The position numbers were made by a program, and so were the translations under genes. Below, piece by piece: positions 2,686 to 54,162 of a stretch of DNA of 64,000 bases. This stretch comes from Anthopleura xanthogrammica (Eukaryota > Cnidaria > Anthozoa > Actiniaria > Actiniidae): assembly GCA_964019055.1 (NCBI GenBank), contig OZ025207.1:20429617-20493616 (forward strand). Direction: 5' to 3'. Position 1 is the stretch's first letter, and each line of letters opens with the position of its first letter. The notes below the pieces were generated by a model. The model was given only the letters and a program-made list of their open reading frames with translations. It was not told the origin of the DNA and did no database searches.

Positions 2686-2848
2686 GGCTAGCATTTGTTT
2701 GAAAAGACAGTACAATGTGCAGCCCATAAATCCAAACTGTATATTTTTGTTGAATACAAAAAACTTGTGAAATTATACACTTAATTGTATTACATTCTAT
2801 TACACTTTATTGTCTACATTTTAATTGGATTCAGTGTATTATTATAAG

Positions 2849-2985
2849 TAATACCATGGCAATGAGGGATATAAGTGATTAAATTTCCCCGAAGCCGAGG
2901 GAGGTTTAGGTTTAGATAGTTTTACTAAATCTCCCGAGGCAGAGGGACATTTAATCACTAATCTCCCGAAATTGCCATGGTATTA
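2849..2985. repeat. MITE-like palindrome, 137 bp
   Basis: The ends are exact inverted repeats, TAATACCATGGCAAT at 2849 and its complement ending at 2985. The interior is also partly self-complementary (cccGAGG and cctCGGG blocks and ttaatcact/agtgattaa). There is no coding capacity, as expected of a non-autonomous DNA transposon. Confidence 0.75.
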
Positions 2986-3170
2986 GTTTGTAATACCATC
3001 ATTTCCGAGGAAAACATCAAGAATTATGATCTAAATGAGCTTTAAATCAGAATATATTAAAGGGGTTTCGTTGAAAGAGCCTTGATGACTCCCTACTCCG
3101 GGGAATGCTGAGGAATGTTCATTGTTCAATAATGTTCAATAAATTATGTTAAGCCGTCAAAAAATCAGAA

Positions 3171-3397
3171 ATGGCAGAGTGCAGTTGCTTTTCTTTCGTG
3201 AAAGACACAGAAATCGACAAAGTAAGAGATTCGACAGTCCCTGGAAATACAAAGAAGCATACGGCTTAATAACGTGTATAAGAAATGGGTGCAGGCTAGA
3301 GAAAAAGAATTTAAAGACTTTGAATCTGAAAACAAAGAGTTTCCATCTATTCCACCAATAACAGAGTTGAAGGTTAATGAGATGAACTACTGGTTGT
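3171..3397 (+). pseudogene. N-terminal fragment of a Crypton/QRICH1-ZMYM-like (DUF3504) protein
   Basis: From ATG 3171 the frame reads MAECSCFSFVKDTEID then STVPGNTKK. After a shift near 3255 a second frame reads NVYKKWVQAREKEF and ends ITELKVNEMNYWL. This order (short acidic start, NTKK, then YKKWVQAR, then MNYWL) is how Crypton-derived DUF3504 proteins of the QRICH1/ZMYM/KIAA1958 type begin, as I remember them. Two stops and a frameshift show decay. The recombinase domain itself is missing. The family call rests on motif memory. Confidence 0.45.
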
Positions 3398-4130: not shown

Positions 4131-4559
4131 TACCCTTTTGGTATTTTCATACGAAAGTAGACGCTCCTGGAGTGTTCACTGGGTTGCCTTTGCAAGAACT
4201 CTCTCACCCTGCAATCCTATAAATTTTACAACTGCACACGAAAATTTTCCTTTTGTCTTCTAATTACCCCTTTATTATTTATATTTAAAAATCTAGTTTT
4301 GTGTTACTTACGCATCAACGCGTATTAGATTTCTACTTGACCTAGGAGAGTACCGGGAGGTTTCAATACTAGGTAATGAAATATATTTAATTCACTATGT
4401 AAACATATCCCTTTCAGAATCAAAGGTTTTCACTTAAAAACAAACATTTTATAAATGTAAATGTTCTAAGCGAAAATTTGTTGAATTTGGAATTTGTTTT
4501 GTCCTTACCCTTTGGTATTTCGTATTTTCATAAACGTATTTATTCAACACCACAACTTA

Positions 4560-48500: not shown

Positions 48501-51500
48501 AGAATTGCCATACAAATTAAAAAATTGCCAGCAGGGACTTTGAAACCTGGCATATTGGGCTGACTAGACCACACAGAATGGCGTTTGGGACACTTCGGGT
48601 TTGAGCAGTCTGTAGAGACCACAATCATTGAACCTAGCTCTTTTGGAGTTACAAGTGGGTCCTTTGCTCCACAGGAATGGCATATGGAAAACAGCAGTTG
48701 CAATTGTGTCCAAAATACAATAAATTTAGGTGTGGTCCTAATATTGTCATTCTCTTCGGTGACTAATCTATAAACAAATATAACAACATTCCTTGTTTAT
48801 GTCATTTCATGCAGACAGTTATTGTCATTTGCTTTAGTTCTTGTCAATGTAAGGCTTATTACGATTTAGCAATTGATAGGAATTTATAGTTTGTAAAAAG
48901 GGATAGGCCAGTACCTTGTAGGATCGTGATCATCCTCTTCGGTTAGGGTACTTTCTGTCTCCGATTCTGTCTCGTACATCTCTTCCTCCATCTCCACATC
49001 TGACTCGTCTGACTCATCTGGAATTTGTTCTAAATCCTCACTGAATTCCATTTCGATTGGCTCTGAGCTACAATCTTCTGCAAAAATAAAGTGCCACTAC
49101 ACCCCTTTCCCCCTTAGCAATGTTGTTCTATGAAGTTTTCGAGCTTATGAAGTGGTTACCGGATAAAATGCATGCGAGACAACATTGCTAGGGGGGTAGA
49201 GGGGGAACGGTGTTCCAGAATAGTACGTGTCCCATTTTATTTTGCTTGAGATTGTATTTGTGACTGATGAAAAGATAAGGTATCGACAAGAAGTACCTAG
49301 CTATGATGACGAGTTTAAGGATGGTGTCGAAAGGTCGAGAAGCTTTGTTTTAGCGTCATGAAAACACGTAATGTTTATGCGCTAATGTTATATTGTTGCT
49401 ATTTCAAAGGTTTATAAATACTTGTAAGTTTTTTTCTTAATTCACACCAGCGAAGTTTTGAGTATTGGTAGTAAGAGATTTAGAGGTTAAACTCTGTGCA
49501 CTTTAACCATGACTATTGACTGTGAAACGAGAGCTCTCATTTATACTTTAACGAGATTTCAAGGCCTTTCTTATCGCAAAGTCGCCAAGGAGTGCAATGT
49601 TTCAAAGACTACAGTTTCAAGAATAGCTAACAAGAAACAGGTCGAGAAGAATTCAGGACCAGAGAGGAGAGGTAGACCAAGAAAACTTAGCGAACGTGAA
49701 CGTAGAAAGCTAAAAAGAGCGCTTTTGTACTTAAGAGAAGCGGAGGGGAGCTTCTCTATAAAACGATTGATGCATCAGGCCCGTGTTGACCATGTGTCAG
49801 AAAGTACAGTGTCAAGATTTTTACACAGTGAGGGATATTTTTACCTTCAAGCACGAAAGAAAGGGTTGATGTCAGAGGACGATACTCGCATGCGATTAGC
49901 ATTCGCAAAAAAAAGTTTGAAGGAGAGGCCTCAAAACTTTTGGACAAGACAGATAGCATTTTACTTAGACGGTACTTCCTTTGCATACAAGCGCAACCCT
50001 ATGGATCAGGCTCGAGCTCCAAAGGGAAGGATTTGGAGGAAAAAAAGCGAAGGGCTAACACGTGGCTGTACAGCTAAAGGAAGAAAAGAGGGTAGTGGAG
50101 GTAAAGTGTTGAAACTCATGGTGGCAATCAGCTATGCTAAGGGCGTGGTTATTTGTGAGCCTTACGAACATATGAATGGATGTTACTTTGCTCGATTCAT
50201 CGAAGAAAACTTTGAAAACATGTTTCGAACTGCAAACAAAGGGAGAAGCCGAATATGGCTCCAAGACGGTGACCCAAGCCAGAATTCTGCGACAGCCAAG
50301 GCAGCTATGAAACGATCAAATTGTGAACTTTTGAAAATACCTCCCAGGAGTCCGGATTTAAACCCCATTGAAAACCTTTTTCATATTTTATCGAAAAAGT
50401 TAAAAGAAAACGCAATAACTAGAAGAATAACACATGAAACATTTGAACAGTTTAAAAATAGAGTGATAGCTACTTTATATTCTATCGATGTATCTACTAT
50501 AAATAATATCATAGCTTCGATGAATAAGCGTATAAGAGAAGTCATTAAGAGTGGTGGTAAACGTATCAAATACTAAACATGCGATCAGTAAATGCAAGGA
50601 GTAAGGGTATGTTTATCAACAATATACGATTTTGGCATGTTTTTTCTTATACGAAATTCATTCCTATTTTTTCACTTTATCACATAATAAACAGGGCGTA
50701 GTAACAACAGCGCACTGAAGTTTATAAATGAAATACCTTAATGAATATATTAATAAAATACGTTAATAAACTGCACATTAATTTCTTTTTGTGAAATTGA
50801 TTTCGTCCGATATCTAAGTTTTATTTGTTTAAATTAGCTTAATTTTTTGCAAACCGAACTCACTTTTTACTTTGCACCCAACCCCTCCCTCCCTAAAGGG
50901 GTAGTAGTGTATCGTACGAATCACAATGGTTCATCGTCTCTACTTAATCAGGCAAAACGACTTGCTCTATTCTCGTAATAATCTCAATCAATGTTTAAAT
51001 ACATAGCTCCTCAACCTACAAACAATGTCGTGGTATGCTTTCATAGATATGTATTAACGGTTGACAGAAAGAAATAACTTGATCATGGTGAACCGTTGAT
51101 GCATAAAATAATATATATACATAAATTAATATTGTATTCTAGCGATTCACCATGGTGAATCGTCTCTAAATAGGAACTCTTTAAATGGGTTTCTATTTTA
51201 ATTCCATAGTATTATTAATCTCGAGCTCTGAAATATTTATCCACTGTGACATAAGCTGAAATTCTAAACTACGGTTAATTATTACAAAGTTTGTCATGGT
51301 GTATCGTTCCTCGCTGAACGCCTTTATGCTAATTATGGATTACAAATTATGAGCTCGGCAAAACATCGCGGGCATGATGGTGTCTCAATTTGTTCTTCCA
51401 AGGGAATTTGAGAAAACAAAGTGAAAGTACGCCAACGGACTCTCATCATCTCCGTCTCCACCTCGTCCACCACTCCTCCCTTGACAAAGCTGAAGTGCTC

Positions 51501-54162
51501 TTTGGACGTACAGAATATGGGGGAGTCTCTATCAAAGACTATGTCCTCTGAATAGTGAGTCTTAGGTGCTGGAAAATGCACAGTCTGCCCTTCTAAAAGC
51601 AATAACAAATTGTGCCATGGGATAATCGCTGCTGACCACCTGAAGTCATTAAGAAATATAACTTCACTTGATTCTACTCCTAGCCACGCGAAGGTGCTCG
51701 TTGCTGGGTTACTAAACGTAGTATAGAGGATAGTCAGCGGATTCAAGAGGAACGTTTTGCCACAATTTGATGGGCCCTTGACGAGAATATTACGATACTT
51801 CCCTCTTCCATTTTCTAGTAGACATCGAACTGCGCCAGAGAATTCTTGAACATTTATTCCGTTACGATGAAGTATGTTTAGTGCCAATCGAAGCCAATTA
51901 TTGTCACACCCATTAGCACAAACGCCAGCACATGCGTTATTTAGCAACTCTATTCGAGACGTACGAGATCTTTTAAGCTTTTCCTCTGCACTTTTCATTT
52001 CCCACTTCTTTTTGCTTATTAGCTAGTGCTAAGAGTTCTAAACGAGTCTTTATTCCTTTATGGACTGCTATTTCCGACACCTCGTAAATGGTAAGTTGTG
52101 CTTTGCGAGTCTTTTTGTTTTTCATTGATTTCCCTCTTATTCTTCCCATCCTCGTTTCCGTTGCTCGTGTAGTTATTGGATCTGTAATATCTGGATGCCC
52201 CTCTGATTTAATATACTCTGAATCATCTTTCGTTGTGTAAACCCACGCTGTATAGTAATTACTATGTCGGTTAGAGAAGTTAACTTCAATTCCGTATTTC
52301 TGGTGGATATAATTCCTAACTTTAAGCCATCTACGACGATTTTGCAGCTTCACAGCCATGTGATAGTGAATCCCTGAGCTTACATGGGGCTCTCTGCTAC
52401 ACACCCAGTGAATAATATTCGCATTTCTACCGACTGTAGGATCACAGTTCTCGAATGCATCTGTTATAATGTTTACGAATGCTTCACGTGTTGGAACTTT
52501 TACTAAGTCACCCTGACTGTAGGTAATCAAGTATACACTTCGCACCTGACGAGTATCCATCTCTCTATCTTCCATGAGGTTATAGAAGCTTTAGAATAGA
52601 TTTTTAACATAAGAAACTCTTCTTCATGCAATCCTGATATATCCGCAACAAATCTCTTGACCTATCTATCGACCGAAGAGTGTTTACAACACATAGCCAA
52701 GGCAATTTACATATAAAATTGTTTAATCAGACATTCATTGTGTCCCTATTCACAAGGGATTGCACGATTTCAAGTGTCTATAGCCCCTACTCAAAGTAAA
52801 AACCCTATTTATCTATTATTTCTATATCAAAAAGCTTAAATTTTTTTCTTTCGTAAAATATAATCAATAGTCAAACAATTTCGTTAAGTAAAACATATAT
52901 AACGATACCCTATCTAACCGATTTTTCACTCTAAACACATGATTTTACGAACCAAATTATGAGTCCGAACTACACATTCCAAACATGCCATTAAAATACA
53001 ATCTTCTGCAAAAATAAAGTGCCACTACACCCCTTTCCCCCTTAGCAATGTTGTTCTATGAAGTTTTCGAGCTTATGAAGTGGTTACCGGATAAAATGCA
53101 TGCGAGACAACATTGCTAGGGGGGTAGAGGGGGAACGGTGTTCCAGAATAGTACGTGTCCCATTTTATTTTGCTTGAGATTGTAGGTCCGTCGGTCGCGT
53201 CTTCAGCGTTGCCTGTGTCGTCGTTGTTGTCCACAGTCAAGGTATCCAACTGAGTCTGCAAGCGTTTACCTGATTACACAAATCAGTCGTAGTGGTTACG
53301 TTGAATTTATTACTATAATATAATACTAATAGATAATGACTTACTTCTTAATTTCTCTCTCCTAAGTTGGTCTTTTCTTGTTTTGAGATGCGAGCGCAAC
53401 GTTATCACTTGATTTCGAAGTTGTCTCTCCTTTGACTGTGGCGGCGGTGTTTGTTTAGTTTGGACCGGTGTTTTGTTTATATCTTCCTGTTGAGAAGTAC
53501 TGGCGACTGGACTGTTGTGCTCTCTTTCCTGTAATAATCGGACAAAAAGAGAATACAGAATTAACATGTTTAAGACAATAAATTAAAAAATCGGGTTAAT
53601 AAAAAGTTGGGAATCGCTTACTTCGATTTCAATAACTTGGTCTATTGATCGGTCGATTTGCTCATCGTCTTGGTCAACTTCAGCTTCCCGATCGACTTCG
53701 GCAGGTCTTGCAGTTATATCTTTCATAATCTTAGAGATTATAAAAAGGGAAAGTAAAATTTAAAAGACAAACAACTTAAATTATTCGGCATTGTCTTCTA
53801 AAACTCACCTTCCTTCGGGTTCGTTCACTTTGCGCTTTCTCCTCGGTTGTGAGGAAGATTGTTGGGAAACTTGTTATCCCGACCTCATCTCTTTTCAATC
53901 TTGGATGCACTGGTGTTTTCAAGCCCTCAATTTTTGAGAACATATTCTCATAAGCATCAGACTTGAAATGTTTAGAGCACACTGCGGACCATTTTGAAGG
54001 ACGCCAGTGTTTACGATGTAGGCTGACAAAGTCAACCCATCGCTTACGTTGCCTCTTTGCTTCAGGTCGATTGTCATCGTAAAACGGAATGGTATGAAGG
54101 CTTATACCTTCCTGCAAGTTGGACTCGCTATTACAGTGTGTTACAACACAATATTTGGGCAT
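45564..54162 (-). CDS. Kolobok-type THAP transposase gene, 12 exons, split by a nested insertion
   Basis: Exons: 54162-53809, 53729-53622, 53528-53345, 53269-53183 plus 49068-48915 (one exon split by the nested unit), 48767-48407, 48041-47844, 47661-47475, 47068-46820, 46668-46497, 46351-46203, 46121-45927, 45688-45564. All have GT/AG borders. Without the nested unit their lengths total 2,523 nt, 841 codons including the stop. Exon 1 is a THAP finger (KYCVVTHC...AVCSKHF), then a coiled coil and an acidic segment. The transposase core has FSICHSCGAKDP, VMAGDGRHDSMGH (Asp), DTFISDRHTSI (Asp) and SCLEGFHSVLNHFAPK (Glu). The C-terminus has a Cys/His knuckle (CCKTCKKPMKGHSKVTDC). The enzyme is probably inactive only because of the insertion. 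Confidence 0.85.
47211..47350. repeat. MITE in a transposase intron
   Basis: TTAGAGTGCAAACAATATAT at 47211 is mirrored by its complement ending at 47350, with arms of about 35 bp that continue through ctgtgaaa/tttcacag. It lies between the exons starting at 47661 and 47068. Confidence 0.8.
49071..49254. repeat. left copy of the 184-bp palindromic end repeat
   Basis: Its own ends are inverted: CAATCTTCTGCAAAAATAAA against the complement of ttttattttgcttgagattg. The inner arms, ccctttcccccttagcaatg and cattgctaggggggtagagg, pair as well. By eye it is identical to 52999-53182. Confidence 0.92.
49509..50576 (+). CDS. DD34E Tc1-like transposase of the nested unit
   Basis: An intact 355-aa frame from ATG 49509. 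The N-terminal HTH reads LSYRKVAKECNVSKTTVSRI, followed by an AT-hook-like GRPRKL and a second HTH (SIKRLMHQA, SESTVSRFLHSEGY). The DDE core has IAFYLDGTSFAYK (first Asp), IWLQDGDPSQNS (second Asp) and IPPRSPDLNPIENLFH (Glu), with 34 residues between the last two. Tc1-type enzymes cut at TA, which fits the TA borders of this unit. It is the only transposase in the unit and the obvious candidate for having moved it. Its own separate terminal repeats are not seen. Confidence 0.92.
   Translation: MTIDCETRALIYTLTRFQGLSYRKVAKECNVSKTTVSRIANKKQVEKNSGPERRGRPRKLSERERRKLKRALLYLREAEGSFSIKRLMHQARVDHVSESTVSRFLHSEGYFYLQARKKGLMSEDDTRMRLAFAKKSLKERPQNFWTRQIAFYLDGTSFAYKRNPMDQARAPKGRIWRKKSEGLTRGCTAKGRKEGSGGKVLKLMVAISYAKGVVICEPYEHMNGCYFARFIEENFENMFRTANKGRSRIWLQDGDPSQNSATAKAAMKRSNCELLKIPPRSPDLNPIENLFHILSKKLKENAITRRITHETFEQFKNRVIATLYSIDVSTINNIIASMNKRIREVIKSGGKRIKY
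50920..51320. repeat. iterated ATGGTGnATCGT motif with a 20-bp perfect palindrome
   Basis: Variants of catggtgaatcgtctct occur near 50924 (ggttcatcgtctct), 51086 (ggtgaaccgttg), 51152 and 51298 (ggtgtatcgttcct). The copy at 51143-51162 is a perfect palindrome, CGATTCACCATGGTGAATCG. This lies between the two genes, next to the end of the Rep gene. It could be a Rep- or transposase-binding array. Confidence 0.65.
51333..52575 (-). pseudogene. CRESS-DNA-type Rep (HUH endonuclease plus SF3 helicase), frame-broken
   Basis: Minus strand, two frames overlapping by 26 bp. The first (52575-51973, 200 aa) has the Rep endonuclease motifs: YLITYSQGD (motif I), GIHYHMAVKL (motif II, H-x-H) and YTAWVYTTKDD (motif III, with Tyr and Lys). 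The second (51998-51333) has the SF3 helicase: VKGPSNCGKTFLL (Walker A), VIFLNDFRW (Walker B) and SPIFCTS (motif C). Such proteins nick a replication origin and unwind it during rolling-circle replication of small circular DNAs. The two parts are out of frame near 51985, and the linker between them seems short, so this copy has a frameshift or small deletion. No TAGTATTAC-type nonanucleotide was found; the closest is TAGTATTAT near 51207. Confidence 0.85.
52999..53182. repeat. right copy of the 184-bp palindromic end repeat
   Basis: Same orientation as, and by eye identical to, 49071-49254. It is preceded by TA (52997-52998) and followed by TA (53183-53184). 52576-52996 before it is AT-rich and non-coding. 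Confidence 0.92.

Follow-up and report, generated by a model that had tools for sequence, protein, structure and literature searches.

An insertion of about 4.1 kb in the window, the whole 64,000-nt stretch of DNA analysed here, carries a Tc1-type transposase and a Rep gene between two palindromes. It raises the question of whether cut-and-paste and replication functions belong to one mobile unit and, if so, how this unit is built and moves. In our reading, to which we give a probability of about two in three, the unit is a replicon that bears Rep and encodes a DD34E transposase of its own, integrating in terminally redundant form from a multimer, and the solo copies of its palindrome are its MITEs. 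The unit is probably one member of a family of elements of about 4 kb, in which a Rep with HUH nuclease and SF3 helicase is paired with a Tc1-type DD34E transposase.

The unit (49071-53182) is composed of a 184-bp palindrome, a cargo of 3.74 kb and an identical second palindrome, and is flanked by TA (Table 1). The stretches 49069-49256 and 52997-53184, each made up of TA, 184 bp and TA, do not differ at any of their 188 bp and lie in direct orientation. This is in agreement with the original prediction of two identical direct repeats with TA flanks, each an inverted-repeat palindrome, of which the first bases are CAATC and the last GATTG. The transposase ORF, on the plus strand, and the Rep ORFs, on the minus strand, are placed tail to tail between the palindromes. 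Because of the 188-bp identity and the presence of the same layout at other loci, a chance origin of this layout is excluded. Another copy of the cargo, about 99% identical (locus L009), was found at G000:C2:20387983-20392152, about 90 kb upstream of the window unit. Its flanks have no similarity to those of the window site, and L009 is therefore a separate insertion.

The search for inverted repeats within the window cargo, as possible separate ends of Rep or transposase, returned ten weak pairs (at most 25 nt, 76-92% complementary). One of them, 49377-49401 with 50614-50638 (25 nt, 76%), encloses the transposase ORF and was judged too weak to represent ends. Chance nesting of the two genes, set against a single unit in the original prediction, is contradicted by the co-occurrence of transposase and Rep elsewhere. 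Four iteron-like motifs of the ATGGTKNAYCGT type were also detected, at 50926, 51085, 51152 and 51296, on one strand and in or near the convergent intergenic space. Three or more such motifs occurred in 0 of 2000 shuffles, and the motif was not found in the cargo of the sister element L023.

Table 1. Features of the inserted unit and of the interrupted host exon, with positions in the window
Feature	Position	Strand	Remark
Host gene exon, left part	48900..49068	-	Frame runs on into 53185-53290 with one TA kept
TA target duplication, left outer	49069..49070	.	Paralogous empty site with single TA
Left 184-bp palindrome, terminal direct repeat 1, TIRs CAATC...GATTG	49071..49254	.	Identical to right copy
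Conserved core hairpin, left copy (GCAATGTTGT ... ACAACATTG), candidate replication origin	49117..49187	.	Origin role inferred
TA, inner side of left palindrome	49255..49256	.	
Cargo	49257..52996	.	
DD34E Tc1-type transposase, 355 aa, open	49509..50576	+	
Four iteron-like copies of the ATGGTKNAYCGT-type motif, between convergent gene ends	50926..51320	+	
Rep C-terminal part, SF3-type helicase, Walker A GPSNCGKT	51333..51998	-	Separate frame
Rep N-terminal part, HUH (HYH) and YxxK motifs	51973..52575	-	
TA, inner side of right palindrome	52997..52998	.	
Right 184-bp palindrome, terminal direct repeat 2	52999..53182	.	
Conserved core hairpin, right copy	53045..53115	.	
TA target duplication, right outer	53183..53184	.	
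Host gene exon, right part	53185..53290	-	

When the flanks of the window unit are joined with one TA, a continuous host reading frame results. A genome search with the joined flanks revealed a contiguous paralogous site, G000:C19:6905174-6905444, which they match through the single TA. The similarity amounts to 97.8% across 627 bp, and the single small gap of the alignment lies elsewhere than the junction. The paralogous site (L067) is uninterrupted, with neither cargo nor palindrome. Since the joined flanks match a contiguous site in this way, the window unit is a true insertion. Both the TA-flanked 4.1-kb insertion that had been predicted and the empty site by which it was to be recognised are thus found, the latter exact and with one TA. 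The unit splits a coding exon of a host gene having an acidic stretch. The ORF at 53776-54162, a neighbour of this exon, encodes what we take to be a THAP-like domain.

The transposase was predicted to be an intact DD34E enzyme, and this was confirmed by its open ORF of 355 aa, its Pfam domain DDE_3 and its invariant catalytic triad. It also possesses the domain HTH_Tnp_Tc3_2 and matches the catalytic domain of Sleeping Beauty (SB100X structure, E 5.3e-11). Residues D154, D253 and E288, which have the DD34E spacing, are invariant in 20 out of the 20 transposases aligned, namely that of the window and 19 of the 120 relatives listed. The ORF is likewise open in L009, L023 and L024. Outside the genome, 1932 relatives of the transposase were detected (best 120 listed), a number that will include ordinary Tc1-type transposases. 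Among the traits of Tc1/mariner elements, the window unit has the DD34E triad and the TA target duplication. It departs from the arrangement of a transposase alone within one TIR pair, as Rep is present too and the ends are duplicated.

The HYH and GPSNCGKT motifs on which the prediction of a Rep gene was based are real; however, the gene is not intact. In the window the two motifs sit in different, overlapping frames of the minus strand. Aligned with a full-length relative, the window Rep falls into a pair of fragments in separate frames and lacks an internal segment. The Rep of L009 is damaged at another place, where a frame change and internal stops were found. Rep is thus broken in either copy of the element, although its motifs are real. 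Residues H101, H103, Y144, K147, K358 and T359 are invariant in 20 out of the 20 full-length Reps aligned, including that of L023, and the aligned Reps carry an HUH nuclease with the catalytic tyrosine (YxxK) and the Walker A motif of an SF3 helicase.

All Pfam matches of these 20 Reps are weak, and correspond to REP_ORF2-G2P (18/20), Parvo_NS1 (9/20), papilloma E1 (8/20) and geminivirus Rep (1/20). PIF1 helicase was absent from the Pfam matches of the 20 relatives, and the best helicase matches are of the SF3 type. Searches of Rep against PDB profiles and PHROGs gave nothing convincing. We refer to the protein as HUH-SF3 Rep, a name that follows its predicted motifs. The label 'CRESS-type', given originally, agrees with the HUH and SF3-type motifs but has loose support, since the helicase matches the profiles of parvovirus NS1 and papillomavirus E1 with weak scores. 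Outside the genome, 93 relatives were found for the N-terminal part and 835 for the full-length Rep (best 120 of the 835 listed), and the named sources include Apostichopus japonicus, Acropora millepora and Desmophyllum pertusum. Relatives were not found in viral contigs or in prokaryote genome contigs, nor were relatives of Rep, searched alone there, among phages and plasmids.

Rep sequence is present at nine places in the 290-Mb genome, and at four out of the nine (window, L009, L023 and L024, belonging to two lineages) it adjoins a transposase. The other five are degraded pieces with neither a transposase match nor a core hairpin in the 9-kb stretches fetched, apart from one stretch that has a weak transposase fragment at its margin. 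A degraded Rep piece at G000:C15:2284294 and a weak transposase piece at C15:2288982 are 4.4 kb apart and divergent. The sister element L023, on contig C19, possesses a Rep in one frame of 520 codons and a transposase in one frame of 368 codons, tail to tail as in the window. Its transposase is 48% identical to that of the window and its Rep parts 38-57%, and its ends are identical 287-bp palindromes in the form of direct repeats. Because the gene pair and the palindrome ends recur in this diverged element, the pairing of Rep and transposase is not due to chance. The further copies with the same genes and 184-bp ends that had been foreseen were found in part: L009 is such a copy, truncated, and L023 has the gene pair but ends of 287 bp.

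Relatives outside the genome point in the same direction, and together with L023 they uphold the original view of transposase and Rep as one mobile unit. The longest contigs of 213 listed Rep matches were compared with those of 120 listed transposase matches, and sizes of at least 5 kb were exactly equal in three cases (18209, 327380 and 14921), whereas the offset controls (n=120) gave 0.04 on average and never more than 1. Over contigs of every size there were 4 coincidences, where the offset controls averaged 2.45 and reached 7, so that the signal lies in long contigs only. A coincidence at 4295, below 5 kb, was no better than chance and was set aside.

In the search with the 287-bp palindrome, 40 out of 167 candidates were scored, all full-length or nearly so, and close pairs in the same orientation were picked. 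The loci L060, L061 and L062 each possess one cargo of 1404 bp between two palindromes, and L063 possesses two such cargos, one of them holding an unrelated insert of about 2.4 kb. The 1404-bp cargo is a deletion derivative of the L023 cargo, in which the start, the end and part of the Rep end are kept and the transposase is lost. A 42-nt inverted repeat is present near the transposase gene of L023 (6085-6126 and 7171-7212), and the deletion endpoints of the derivative (about 6081 and 7212 in L023) are at its edges. An inverted pair near the transposase of L023 was rejected as a TIR because it overlaps the coding start of that gene.

Six two-ended units (window, L023 and L060-L063) were compared, leaving out L009, which is truncated, and L024, which is rearranged. 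In 6/6 units the palindromes are in direct orientation and the two copies have zero mismatches (1622 bp compared), and TA was found outside the palindromes on 12/12 sides. The inner edges are GA/TC on 10/10 sides of the five 287-type units (TTTTCAGA-palindrome-TCTGA), which are one lineage and whose edges are not independent observations; inner TA was found in the window unit alone. Among the five 287-type units, empty sites were searched with the flanks of L060. Once joined, these match 36 places, two of which are its own flanks, and 15 matches, not aligned base by base, cross the junction with at least 50 bases per side. Judging from these matches, the L060 unit seems to have been inserted in one piece into a repeat copy that was previously empty.

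The 184-bp palindrome matches 39 further rows in the genome beyond the two cargo copies, a lower bound, which are full or partial and 69-96% identical. Solo palindromes were sampled by reading 34 loci, 11 of which proved to be unit ends or the rearranged L024, and the 184-type is represented by 4 of the 39 further rows. TA is present on both sides in 16/19 solo palindromes of the 287-type and 4/4 of the 184-type. The solo copies are short, possess TIRs and TA flanks and occur in many copies, which are the traits of MITEs. Their divergence from the unit palindrome is 1-6% in the 287-type (40 scored) and at least 4% in the 184-type.

A third palindrome, of 256 bp, was found directly upstream of a transposase at C2:2357003, which was detected by protein search, without use of the core, and is 53% identical. 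This palindrome has other TIRs and the same core, in which a C-rich stem and CAATGTTGTG are separated by a loop from CCAACATTG and a G-rich stem. Similar to the 287-type units, its edges are TA outside and TCTGAAA on the transposase side. The locus (L066) possesses a single palindrome and no Rep, and the loose core appeared in 0 of 2000 mononucleotide shuffles of it. The core hairpin is common to three lineages with different TIRs. Genome-wide, the strict core has 75+68 matches against 0 for the reversed pattern, which is not an element count, as copies of the 184-type are hit on either strand and another family of hairpins is included. This family (GCAATGTTGTATGGGATATACAATCACGAGC...), found at G000:C2:21622859, C3:9017624 and other places, matches the core pattern and may be unrelated to the palindromes.

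In an alignment of 30 palindromes of the 287-type, unit ends among them, variation is lowest in the stems and the TIRs. The core is more conserved between lineages than the ends, and this suggests that it serves a function beyond end recognition. Ambisense Rep replicons keep their origin between divergent genes. In a circle, both genes would point away from the palindrome, which would therefore sit at the position of such an origin, and by this analogy the core hairpin is probably the replication origin of Rep. A Rep nick motif was not identified in the conserved core of the three lineages.

Two junctions lack a palindrome. In L009 the cargo runs head to tail into a repeated piece of itself, 166-179 bp long, and ATTAAAA-TA-CAG-TA-TTTGTG stands in the place expected for the palindrome; in L063 the two cargos are joined as TTTTCAGA-CAG-TCTGAAAA. 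Tc1-type transposases cut three bases inside the end and produce 3-nt overhangs. A palindrome with CAG ends cut in this manner leaves the scar CAG or CTG, and the CAA ends of the window palindrome permit C/T, A/T and A/G at the three scar positions, CAG included. Both palindrome-less junctions (2/2, two cases only) are CAG and fit a 3-nt scar of the Tc1 type. L009 has no TA outside its left palindrome and is truncated on the right, which counts against a clean picture. Dimers could also arise by unequal crossing-over between integrated palindromes.

The unit length is 3928 bp in the window and 4166 bp in L023. Among the relatives outside the genome, the longest contig measures 3.8-4.4 kb in 25 of the 120 listed transposase clusters and in 13 of the 120 listed full-length Rep clusters, as part of a broader rise. 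This peak fits circles, but could also come from the assembly collapse of identical multicopy insertions. No extrachromosomal circle was observed among the sequences and collections searched.

From the integrated copies we infer circularity, replication, the origin role of the hairpin and the action of this particular transposase, in the following manner. The native form would be a circle of about 3.93 kb, or a multimer of such units joined head to tail, in which each unit has a single palindrome and the transposase and Rep genes point away from it. This palindrome would comprise both transposon ends (TIRs) and the inner hairpin as probable origin. Replication driven by Rep would make the circle or concatemer, and the transposase would bring together the left end of a palindrome and the right end of the following one, so that palindrome-cargo-palindrome is inserted at TA. 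If the two ends of a single palindrome were paired instead, the palindrome would move alone, giving a solo MITE and a 3-nt scar at the donor.

Four other explanations were considered, among them both routes proposed originally, neither of which fits entirely. The strongest of them, although unlikely, is the homologous recombination of a Rep replicon circle with one palindrome into a resident solo palindrome, one of the two routes proposed originally. Solo copies are abundant and mostly TA-flanked, and such an event would yield an identical layout, with TA outside and the native edges on the inner side. Yet the repeats have zero mismatches in 6/6 units over 1622 bp, although the solos diverge by 1-6% (287-type) or at least 4% (184-type), and the empty sites found are without a palindrome. 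These results favour insertion of the whole unit, and from that route only the circular replicon is kept, in conditional form. Next to this stands, also unlikely, a purely chromosomal tandem layout, formed by unequal crossing-over and gene conversion without any replicating form, with Rep as a relic. Recombination between direct repeats accounts for dimers, conversion can homogenise repeats, and the Rep copies are broken; nevertheless, derivative units with the same deletion structure at separate TA sites require a mobile unit.

Less probable still is the other route proposed originally, an ordinary composite transposon in which two MITEs flank a cargo by chance and move it, with Rep passive. 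The palindromes are MITE-like and occur alone, Rep is broken in the window and in L009, and the inner edges of the window unit are TA, so that the window copy alone fits a MITE-flanked composite. However, each inserted MITE would bring TA on both sides, and the five 287-type units have GA/TC at their inner edges without TA. A two-MITE origin is therefore unlikely for that lineage, which speaks against the proposal of MITE ends mobilising Rep cargo. It is also opposed by the same gene pair and layout in a lineage with a 48% identical transposase, by the 835 full-length Rep relatives, and by the invariance of HUH, YxxK and Walker A residues in the 20 aligned. A parvovirus-like rolling-hairpin element, with the palindromes as telomeres of a linear form and an NS1-like Rep, is very improbable. 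The weak helicase matches (Parvo_NS1 9/20, papilloma E1 8/20), the terminal palindromes and the size of about 4 kb are in agreement with it, but the palindromes are direct in 6/6 units, neither inverted nor flipped, and the cargo junctions are head to tail.

With regard to known systems, the replicon with its own transposase is nearest to Teratorn by its working logic and to Tc1/mariner by its enzyme. Tc1/mariner elements possess a DD34E transposase, a TA target, TIRs, 3-nt scars and short non-coding derivatives (MITEs). The window family shares all of these; in contrast, its ends are doubled as direct palindromes and a Rep partner is present in at least two lineages. CRESS viruses have an ambisense circle with a hairpin between divergent genes, similar to the circle we would assign to the window family. 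Unlike in these viruses, a transposase stands in the place of the capsid gene (none was noted among the ORFs of at least 60 aa, of which only transposase and Rep were scanned), the hairpin is flanked by transposon TIRs, and Rep matches known profiles weakly. The palindromes of the family differ from those of parvoviruses in being direct (6/6 units) rather than inverted or flipped. Helitrons and Replitrons are eukaryotic mobile elements with an HUH protein and are held to move by that protein itself; in Helitrons, Rep is fused to a PIF1-type helicase and insertion occurs at AT without duplication. The window family is also a eukaryotic mobile element with an HUH protein, whereas its insertions have TA duplications of the cut-and-paste type and PIF1 was absent from the Pfam matches of the 20 Reps.

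A Rep with HUH nuclease and SF3-type helicase is shared with CRESS-DNA viruses and parvoviruses, as far as the available portion of the source describes them (PMC6668415). Teratorn, according to the excerpted description, is a 180-kb fusion of piggyBac and herpesvirus in fish, for which it was proposed that a concatemer from rolling-circle replication gives rise to a unit with a transposon copy at either side, which is integrated by transposition (PMC10175614). In that account a DDE transposase travels with a replicon and the concatemer geometry is the same as here (PMC10175614). The window unit differs from the herpesvirus and piggyBac combination of the excerpt in its size of about 4 kb, its Tc1-type transposase, its HUH-SF3 Rep and its two recognised genes. 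The short element at its flanks is, unlike that of Teratorn as excerpted, a palindrome without a transposase gene, which may carry the origin. Coral CMITEs are described, in the text available, as piggyBac-type elements with interiors more conserved than their TIRs and with tandem arrays (PMC2872659). The conserved interior and the tandem arrays resemble those of our palindromes, while the piggyBac type is a difference and a link to Rep was not found in that text (PMC2872659).

In the literature covered by titles and abstract openings, with preprints and most subscription journals outside the scope, no element combining Rep with a Tc1-type transposase was found. The chances seem even to us that these elements form a class of their own among animal mobile elements, namely small circles that replicate themselves and encode a DD34E integrase. 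In such a class one palindromic module would serve at the same time as origin, end pair and MITE, and a single enzyme would spread solo origins as well as terminally redundant genomes through the chromosomes of the hosts, among them at least several marine animals. If so, a single compact element would combine cut-and-paste transposition with Rep-type replication. Such an element, which has many relatives in public data, would be a small parallel to the logic of Teratorn that is open to testing. A class of MITEs would originate as excised replication-origin modules, and Rep genes would have a route into animal chromosomes at TA sites by means of their own integrase. It would also give a reason for MITE interiors being more conserved than TIRs, a puzzle stated for coral CMITEs in the available text (PMC2872659).

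Derivative and rearranged copies of the L023 lineage were also observed. Three derivative cargos, at G000:C1:20627552, 20642738 and 20658325, are about 15 kb apart and have one listed palindrome core each, for which reason they were not counted as units; they are perhaps a tandem segmental duplication. L024, on C20, is a 99.6% identical partial copy of L023 with the left side rearranged. A direct duplication of 565 bp (98.6%) is present on either side of this rearranged element, at 2721-3285 and 6647-7211 of L024. It resembles what we take to be retrotransposon sequence, and is possibly host DNA captured in a circle.
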